A stretch of DNA of 43,277 bases, from contig JACPEI010000038.1 in assembly GCA_016183575.1 (NCBI GenBank), forward strand, positions 1-43,277, written 5' to 3'. Both the position numbers and the translations under genes were made by a program. Below are positions 31,662 through 39,814 of this stretch, piece by piece. The stretch comes from Nitrosomonadales bacterium (GTDB taxonomy: Bacteria; Pseudomonadota; Gammaproteobacteria; Burkholderiales; Gallionellaceae). How positions within the stretch are numbered: position 1 is the first letter of the stretch; every line of letters starts with the position of its first letter. A model generated the notes under the pieces. It was not told where the DNA came from. It did no database searches and worked only from the letters and a program-made list of their open reading frames with translations.

Positions 31662-32408
31662 CTATAAAACCAATTGGTTGTTCAAACAGGTCTTGGCCTG
31701 CGCGAGCCGGGCCAGCGTCGGCAGCAGATTCAGCCCGGTTTGCTCCTTCAATGCCAGCGCGCTTTCCTTCAATTCGTCGAATGAAATTTCGATCGGATGG
31801 CCTGCCGCGGCCAGCGCCACCGCGTTGCCACTCTCGCATGAAGGGAATAGCAGCACGCGATCCTCGAATGCCTCCGCGATATGGGCGGAAGTTCTCTTGA
31901 AACTGCGGCTGCGTGTCAGCAGATTCACCGCCATGATCCCGTTATCGCCGAGGCGGGATCGGCAAGCCTGATAGAACGGCAAGGTCTCCAGCGCTCCCGC
32001 GCGCGCTTTTTCGTCGAAGCCGTCCACCAGGATCAGGTCGAATTTCTTGTTGCTGTTGAGCATGTATTCCGCGCCGTCACCGATTACCAGATTGAGGCGC
32101 TTCGGGTCTTCCGGCAGCTTGAAGAATTGCCGTGCCGCAGCGACCACGGCGGGTTCGATCTCCACCACGGTGAGATGCGCAAGCGGATAGTGGCGATACA
32201 GGAACTTGGTCAGCGAAGCCGCGCCGAGGCCGATCAGCAGCACCTTTTTGGGGGGATCGCGCAGCAGCAGGCTCGTCACCATCTCGCGCGTGTATTCCAG
32301 CTCCAGGTTCCACGGCCGCGCGATGCGCATCGCGCCCTGGATCCATTCGGAGCCGAAGTGCAGTGTGCGCACGCCGGCTTCTTCGCTGATTTCTATTGGT
32401 GTGGCCAT
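31662..32408 (-). CDS. Spermidine synthase-like methyltransferase-fold protein
   Basis: KVLLIGLGAASLTKFLYRHYPLAHLTVVEIEPAVVAAARQFFKLPEDPKRLNLVIGDGAEYM, DLILVDGFDEKARAGAL. Confidence 0.8.
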   Translation of the reverse strand: MATPIEISEEAGVRTLHFGSEWIQGAMRIARPWNLELEYTREMVTSLLLRDPPKKVLLIGLGAASLTKFLYRHYPLAHLTVVEIEPAVVAAARQFFKLPEDPKRLNLVIGDGAEYMLNSNKKFDLILVDGFDEKARAGALETLPFYQACRSRLGDNGIMAVNLLTRSRSFKRTSAHIAEAFEDRVLLFPSCESGNAVALAAAGHPIEISFDELKESALALKEQTGLNLLPTLARLAQAKTCLNNQLVL

Positions 32409-32515: not shown

Positions 32516-32605
32516 GTAGCCCGCATGAAGCGCAGCGGAATGCGGGAAGCAATGTGGCGGTCATCGGATTTTGCCCCGCATTGCGCTGCGCTTCATGCGG
32601 GCTAC
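32516..32605. repeat. Inverted REP pair (BIME-like) flanking the RAYT on its 3' side
   Basis: gtagcccgcatgaagcgcagcggaatgcggg ... ccccgcattgcgctgcgcttcatgcgggctac. Confidence 0.92.
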
Positions 32606-32624
32606 GAGGCTACGAGGCTTATGG

Positions 32625-33170
32625 TTATTTGGAGGGTTCTGGCTCGCCGTATTTTTCATTCATGGTTTCGCTCAATTCACCCGCCCAATCTTCGGGCAAC
32701 ATGCCTTTGCGCACGTAACGATGAAACGATGAATGTGGCCATGCCGACACGCGCGATACGAGGCCGTGCTTGACCGGATTGTAGTGAATGTAATCCACAT
32801 GCCGCGCCAAGTCGTTGTCGTCGCGCAGAGTGTGTTCCCAAAATCGCCGTTGCCACAGGTTGTATTCGCCTTTGGCGTTGCGCGTCAAATTCGATCCCGC
32901 GTGGATCAGGTCGCGGGTAAATCCTGACTTGATTGCGCGCCAGCGCCCGGCATAATCGGCATCGTCAGGTGGCAGTGCCCAGATGGTATGCAGGTGTTCC
33001 GGTAATACCACCATTGCCACGATTTCAAAAGGATGCGTGGTCATCACGCGTTGAAACGCCGCACGCAGAGGCTCGATGTTTTCAGTAAGTGCGTGAGATT
33101 GCCGGTCGGCCAGCGTCACGGTAAAGAAATAGGTTCCACCGGGCAGTTGGTTACGGCGGTAATGCACCAC
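32625..33170 (-). mobile_element. REP-associated tyrosine transposase (RAYT, IS200-like Y1 transposase fold)
   Basis: VVHYRRNQLPGGTYFFTVTLADRQ; HUH-type PEHLHTIWALP; catalytic Tyr region VDYIHYNPVKHGLV; WQRRFWEHTLRDDNDL. GTG start at 33170 has an AGG upstream; the ATG at 33239 would read through the REP. Confidence 0.92.
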
Positions 33171-33202
33171 GGCTTGCCTCCATCGGTTTAAATGTGTAGT
33201 AA

Positions 33203-33285
33203 GTAGCCCGGATGAAGCGCAGCGGAATCCGGGAAGCAATACGGTGGTATTTCCCCCGCATTGCGCTGCGCTTCATGCGGGCTAC
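33203..33285. repeat. Inverted REP pair (BIME-like) flanking the RAYT on its 5' side
   Basis: gtagcccggatgaagcgcagcggaatccggg ... ccccgcattgcgctgcgcttcatgcgggctac. Confidence 0.92.
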
Positions 33286-33289
33286 GAGG

Positions 33290-34159
33290 CTACGATTGGG
33301 ATGCCCACTGGTTTAACAGCCATCTCGCCCACTCGGTCACTTCCGTCGCGGTCATGCCGATGGTGGCTTGCTGCTCAGCCAGCGCGTCGCCCGCCGTGCC
33401 GTGCAGATGCACCGCCAGCAGCAGCGCATCGTCCGCCGACATTCCCTGCGTGATGAAGGCGGCGATCATGCCGGCCAGCACGTCGCCCATGCCTGCCGCG
33501 CTCATGCCGGGGTTGCCGGTCTGGTTGACGAACAGCCTGCCGTCGCGCGTGGCGCACAGGCTGTCAGCGCCTTTCAGTACTATGCTGCAACCGAACTTCT
33601 GCGCCAGTTGCAGCACCGCCGCGACACGGTCTGCCTGCACTTCGCCGATCTTGCAGGCCAGCAGACGCGCGGCTTCGCCGGGATGCGGCGTGAGCACCGC
33701 CGCGGCCTTGCGTGCCCGCAGCAGGGCGCACAGGTCGGGGCGCAGCGCGAGGATATTCAGCGCATCGGCATCCAGCACCAGCGCGGCGTCGCTGTGCAAC
33801 GCGTCATGCAGCAGCTTCTGCGCGGCCATGTCGCGCCCCAGGCCGCAGCCAATTGCGAAAACGTCCACGCCAGGCAGGCGCAGCGCGTCGGCGGCAGAGT
33901 GCAGCATCAATTCCGGCTGCAGCGGGTCGACGCCCGGCGCATTCTCCGCCAGCAGCCCGACATGCACGCAGCCCGCACCCAGTTTGAGCGCGGCGCGTGC
34001 TGCCAGCAGCGGTGCGCCGACCATGCCGGATGCGCCGCCGATCACCGCGATGCTGCCGAACATGCCCTTGTGGCTGTCGCGCGGACGTTTCGGAAAGCTT
34101 GCGATGACCTGCGCTTTGTCAATTGGTATTGGGGTGAGGGCGGGGCTGCTTTTGCTCAT
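33290..34159 (-). CDS. nnrD: ADP-dependent NAD(P)H-hydrate dehydratase
   Basis: HKGMFGSIAVIGGASGMVGAPLLAARAALKLGAGCVHVGL, VLDADALNIL, VLTPHPGEAARLL, NPGMSAAGMGDVLAGMIAA. Confidence 0.92.
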   Translation of the reverse strand: MSKSSPALTPIPIDKAQVIASFPKRPRDSHKGMFGSIAVIGGASGMVGAPLLAARAALKLGAGCVHVGLLAENAPGVDPLQPELMLHSAADALRLPGVDVFAIGCGLGRDMAAQKLLHDALHSDAALVLDADALNILALRPDLCALLRARKAAAVLTPHPGEAARLLACKIGEVQADRVAAVLQLAQKFGCSIVLKGADSLCATRDGRLFVNQTGNPGMSAAGMGDVLAGMIAAFITQGMSADDALLLAVHLHGTAGDALAEQQATIGMTATEVTEWARWLLNQWASQS

Positions 34160-39662: not shown

Positions 39663-39755
39663 GACTGGCGGCGTGGGGCGCGATTTAAACTGATGTGGAG
39701 CTATCCGGAGATCAGAGGACTTCGCCAGCCGACCCTTTGCAGTAGCACCGGGAGC

Positions 39756-39773
39756 GCCGACGTCCTCGTCGGC
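39756..39773. terminator. Hairpin gccgacgtcctcgtcggc downstream of the FabMG-like gene (terminator or another repeat)
   Basis: 7-bp perfect stem with 4-nt loop; no following T-tract. Confidence 0.35.
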
Positions 39774-39782
39774 TGAAGTGTC

Positions 39783-39814
39783 GTAGCCCGCATGAAGCGT
39801 AGCGTAATGCGGGG
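39783..39814. repeat. Solitary REP copy related to the RAYT-flanking REPs
   Basis: gtagcccgcatgaagcgtagcgtaatgcgggg versus gtagcccgcatgaagcgcagcggaatgcggg at 32516. Confidence 0.85.

Follow-up and report, generated by a model that had tools for sequence, protein, structure and literature searches.

A REPtron in a Gallionella-like genome: REP structure, cognate repeats and possible relocation of the whole unit

Introduction

The REPtron arrangement, the co-evolution of RAYTs with REPs and the tie between REP number and the RAYT are established (PMC2817692, PMC3116915, PMC8049555, PMC8266576). The E. coli TnpAREP system (PDB 4er8) combines a Y1 HUH enzyme and its catalytic residues with GTAG-headed REPs and REP pairs that flank the gene. 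In Pseudomonas fluorescens SBW25, the repeat unit is an inverted REP pair (REPIN) and clusters of REPINs adjoin a RAYT (PMC3116915). RAYT/REP pairs with GTAGCCCGGATG-type REPs from Bradyrhizobium, Rhodopseudomonas and Methylobacter belong to the same RAYT clade as the gene described here. RAYTs are pictured in the literature as single-copy and vertically inherited (PMC8049555, PMC6006769), and REPtrons are stated not to transpose as a unit (PMC6006769). The latter source also reports REPtron loss, and toxin-antitoxin genes taking the place of REPtrons in E. coli. A further study describes REPs that share one site inside recB in two Xanthomonas species (PMC3733652).

The present locus shares the listed features of the E. 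coli system. However, its REPs have a perfect 7-bp outer stem, followed by what we interpret as a GNA/GNA internal loop and a GNA triloop, while E. coli REP stems are irregular (PMC8266576). With SBW25 it has in common the inverted pair as repeat unit and the clusters next to the RAYT; it differs from SBW25 in its few cognate copies and its REP sequence, and from the Bradyrhizobium, Rhodopseudomonas and Methylobacter pairs in protein identity (approximately 51-65%), in host and, for some of them, in loop length.

Organization of the locus

The window, i.e., the whole stretch of 43,277 nucleotides that was analyzed, derives from a Gallionella-like MAG (G000) whose 103 contigs total 1.55 Mb; since this MAG is 79% complete, the copy numbers given for it are lower bounds. 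The other G-numbers denote genomes from the same genus or family. Among named relatives, Gallionella sp. STA_17 (96% RAYT identity) and Gallionellales RIFCSPLOWO2_02_FULL_59_110 (91%) come closest. Positions 32516-33285 of the window are a REPIN-RAYT-REPIN arrangement, i.e., a REPtron, with the following features in and around it:

31662..32408 (-), flanking gene sper, Spermine_synth domain, one border of the insertion site
32516..32605, REPIN 1, sper side, two REPs with a 28-nt spacer
32516..32546 (+), REP, GTAG and CCCGCAT...ATGCGGG hairpin
32575..32605 (-), REP, stem as in the REP at 32516
32625..33170 (-), RAYT (TnpAREP) gene, 181 aa, most likely GTG start, stop at 32625
33177..33181 (-), Shine-Dalgarno-like GGAGG, 6 nt ahead of the GTG
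33203..33285, REPIN 2, NAD(P)H-hydrate dehydratase side, two REPs with a 21-nt spacer
33203..33233 (+), REP, stem variant CCCGGAT...ATCCGGG (compensated)
33255..33285 (-), REP, CCCGCAT...ATGCGGG
33290..34159 (-), flanking gene NAXD, NAD(P)H-hydrate dehydratase (Carb_kinase)
39783..39813 (+), lone REP belonging to this family, hairpin intact

A REP search allowing up to three mismatches returned five matches in the window (32516+, 32584-, 33203+, 33264- and 39783+) vs. none in 100 dinucleotide shuffles. The first-pass annotation had described the gene as framed by two inverted REP pairs, and four REPs indeed lie there, the pairs being 97 and 90% complementary with 28 and 21 nt between their arms, respectively. 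Its view that the same REP recurs in all four copies applies to three of them; the fourth, at 33203, carries a G (GTAGCCCGGATG) compensated by a C in the opposite arm. The single REP at 39783, called diverged, was correctly placed; it differs at one of 22 nt, and its hairpin is intact. Synteny downstream of 39662, around this REP, was found in none of G074, G131, and G090. A second palindrome (GCCGACGTCCTCGTCGGC) occupies 39745-39780, immediately ahead of it.

The two REPINs share one orientation and are consequently also direct repeats (84 and 98% identity). REPIN 1, i.e., two inverted REPs and their spacer, folds as DNA into one hairpin (-45.6 kcal/mol, z -10.2).

The RAYT protein

The motifs PEHLHTIW and YIHYNPVKHG, on which the gene had been called a Y1 transposase, are both present in the ORF between the REPINs, which matches NCBIfam REP_Tyr_transpos (NF047646) with E=2.2e-57 and 193 bits against a cut-off of 80. 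It also matches Pfam Y1_Tnp and E. coli TnpAREP (PDB 4er8; E=3.6e-48). Residues H59/H61, Y127, and N131 align with the HUH, Y115, and N119 positions of the E. coli protein and are invariant across the 12 RAYTs aligned; an inactivated catalytic Tyr or HUH, named at the outset as evidence against the proposal, was not encountered, the HLH and Tyr being intact. Among five orthologs dN/dS is 0.09-0.18, and the gene is therefore maintained by selection. The start is most likely the GTG at 33170, which has GGAGG six bases before it; the TTG at 33239 falls inside a REPIN and was rejected in its favor.

Fine structure of the REPs

A total of 90 distinct REPs from the loci examined were compared, conditioned only on GTAGCC, a perfect outer 7-bp stem and a 13-nt loop. 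Positions 12 (G, 97%), 14 (A, 94%), 17 (G, 91%), 19 (A, 98%), 22 (G, 98%), and 24 (A, 90%) were conserved in these 90 sequences, while positions 13, 18, and 23 were free to vary. Positions 15-21 and 16-20 covary, being Watson-Crick in 91 and 96% of the sequences vs. 52 and 69% after shuffling. Two-sided changes were observed at six pairs in 22 sequences hand-chosen for diversity, and the minimum-energy DNA fold reproduces the same outline. In our reading, the 7-bp stem of the REP leads into a GNA/GNA internal loop, which would be fit for sheared G-A pairs, and a 2-bp stem then carries a GNA triloop. A term search of the openly licensed literature returned neither this GNA architecture nor anything relevant on sheared G-A pairs in REPs.

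GTAG families whose stems differ often have the two-pair GNA apex as well (for example, 18 of 37 loops vs. 2.2 shuffled, and 12 of 12 vs. 0.8), counts that describe related sequences and do not constitute a test; in some families the apex is missing. These structures suggest a hypothesis of recognition, in which the variable stem would determine the fitting RAYT and the GNA apex would be common across families.

Proposed mode of action

The locus is very probably a REPtron, in which two REPINs flank a functional gene for a REP-associated Y1 HUH transposase and REPINs are copied in trans. The RAYT protein would bind single-stranded REPs, each a GTAG plus a structured hairpin, and its tyrosine would cut beside them, after which the strands would be rejoined; REPINs could thereby be copied to other places of the genome in trans. 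We infer the cleavage, the strand choice and the copying step. The REPIN-RAYT-REPIN unit itself would have relocated whole at least once in this genus, and could be lost by slippage between its own repeats.

The NAXD-sper insertion site

NAXD and sper are neighbors in most relatives examined. In G000, G074, G090, and G145 they are separated by the RAYT unit, with additional genes in G074 and G145. In G131 the flanks are conserved and a single palindrome, GTAGCCCGCATTACGCTGCGCTTCATGCGGGCTAC, is present. This fits the loss of the RAYT by deletion through the CCCGCAT repeat, leaving a scar, and the sequence matches such a deletion better than an ancestral single REP, a reading that was rejected.

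No repeat was found between the two genes in G096 and G044, and other GTAG...CTAC palindromes occupy the site in G056, G108, G123, G150, G088, and G102. The site is a hotspot, with at least six different GTAG palindromes across species; a palindrome is present in about half of the intact sites vs. four matches elsewhere in approximately 110 kb of the same loci. Several of these palindromes begin at one GTAG, whose TAG is the NAXD stop codon; in the window, too, the TAG stop of NAXD is contained in the GTAG that begins the repeat region.

Possible movement of the REPtron

In G108 the RAYT (84% identity) and both REPINs are located after a cobalamin adenosyltransferase gene (cob site), and its NAXD-sper site carries a different palindrome. 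The cob site is bare in G056 and G153, where only a few bases stand between the same two neighbors. The tree pairs G056 with G153 as sisters, with G108 probably adjacent to them (81/50 support), so that an insertion in G108 or a loss in the ancestor of G056 and G153 would take one step each. The clean join at the bare site favors insertion over loss, and the bare state is presumably ancestral.

The main competing explanation is an immobile, domesticated RAYT that descends vertically while only its REPINs move, the G108 site going back to two old copies that were lost differentially, or to the transfer of a chromosome segment. It agrees with the published picture outlined above, with the NAXD-sper site common to four genomes and with the purifying selection on the RAYT. 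However, at the cob site of G056 and G153 the stop codon is followed almost at once by the conserved sequence downstream, and the flanking genes differ. Moreover, the dS of the RAYT between G000 and G145 is 0.27, while the flanking genes have 0.52 and 0.62. Between G000 and G108 it is 0.77 vs. 0.32 and 0.64. Since RAYT and flanks conflict in both directions, descent has not been simply vertical, a point that also weighs against our main reading. We consider an immobile RAYT possible, if rather doubtful, and lean slightly toward the REPtron having moved as a unit, a reading that draws on one locus pair whose direction is unproven. Our term search of the openly licensed literature found no pair of bare and occupied sites for an entire REPtron. 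With a bare site opposite an occupied one in close species, REPtron movement becomes directly testable.

RAYT presence and REP content

In a RAYT tree of 129 rows, 30 of the 31 rows flanked by GTAGCCCG-stem REPs group in a single clade with 97% support, and the REP-type label changes twice vs. 27.3 times when shuffled. Members of this clade come from alpha, beta and gamma Proteobacteria. Across 150 genomes of the family, REPs were found in all 11 genomes with a clade RAYT (60% or more identity) vs. 35 of 139 without one (Fisher p=9e-7, a value that overstates independence because the genomes are related). The five ortholog carriers have 14-44 REPs per genome, while the median in other genomes is 0. 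A lack of relation between REP abundance and RAYT presence across relatives had been set beforehand as the refuting outcome; in these 150 genomes abundance follows the matching RAYT.

Two exceptions were noted. G146 has 38 REPs and gives 13 matches with the specific b-REP pattern, and no clade RAYT was found in its assembly; the gene may have been lost or remained unassembled. G131 has kept 17 REPs after the loss of its RAYT, and thus offers a natural experiment on REP decay without the enzyme.

These results also bear on the notion that REPs are terminators or mRNA stabilizers kept by the host, their link to the RAYT being incidental. Both REPINs do lie directly 3' of a - strand gene, and the NAXD-sper site is taken by different palindromes in other species, as this notion would have it. 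However, the REP type tracks the RAYT clade through three proteobacterial classes, REP counts are not independent of RAYT presence, and a terminator needs neither the conserved GTAG head nor the loop purines, and we regard the notion as unlikely.

Alternatively, REPINs could bound exchangeable gene cassettes of which the RAYT is merely one, genes between them being gained and lost, integron-like, through RAYT action or REPIN recombination. This is suggested by the REPIN-divided NAXD-sper region of G074 and by similar REPINs between toxin-antitoxin modules in G146, and appears improbable. In G074 (L141 1839-4116) four REPINs in one orientation split the region in the order REPIN, hypothetical genes, REPIN, lipoprotein gene, REPIN, RAYT, REPIN. 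On contig C49 of G146 (L129, 1284-4532), four REPINs and one more REP, b-type and all in one orientation, are found amid MazEF-like, MqsRA, HicB-like and PIN domain modules.

A conventional IS200/IS605 insertion sequence is very improbable: despite the same catalytic fold family, the Pfam Y1_Tnp match, hairpin ends and a possible whole-unit relocation in G108 similar to theirs, IS200 membership was rejected at 22.1 bits against the NCBIfam transpos_IS200 cut-off of 55 (REP_Tyr_transpos, 193 vs. 80), the unit ends in REPINs instead of IS ends and its copy number is low. Elsewhere in G000 the best match is a relative at 51% whose REP is different.

Other RAYTs and repeat families

Generic REPs gave 26 matches in G000 vs. 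0 control matches. The cognate subset is small (six matches, three of them within the RAYT locus), and full cognate REPINs beyond the locus are scarce, with one clear case on C76. The suggestion that at least one repeat family may come from this RAYT fits the GTAGCCCGCATG REPs and does not extend to all REP-like repeats of G000. The most numerous REPIN subfamily, GGATGCAGCGCAGCG paired with GGATGAAACGCAGTG, occurs on C24, C38, C41, C68, C80, and C82, and no RAYT was found beside its REPINs in the incomplete assembly. On contig C10 (L052 3971-4516), gatA and gatB enclose a second RAYT of G000, which has its own GTAGGGTGGATAAA repeats.

Finally, in genus g9 (L198, L199, L201, L202) a RAYT unit of 634 bp, whose ends are GTAGGGTGGGCACG, is present in two full copies per genome plus fragments. 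No clean empty site was obtained for this two-copy unit, as the flank serving as probe is itself repeated. The copies are 92-94% identical in each of two single-contig genomes, contrary to the rule that RAYTs are single-copy.
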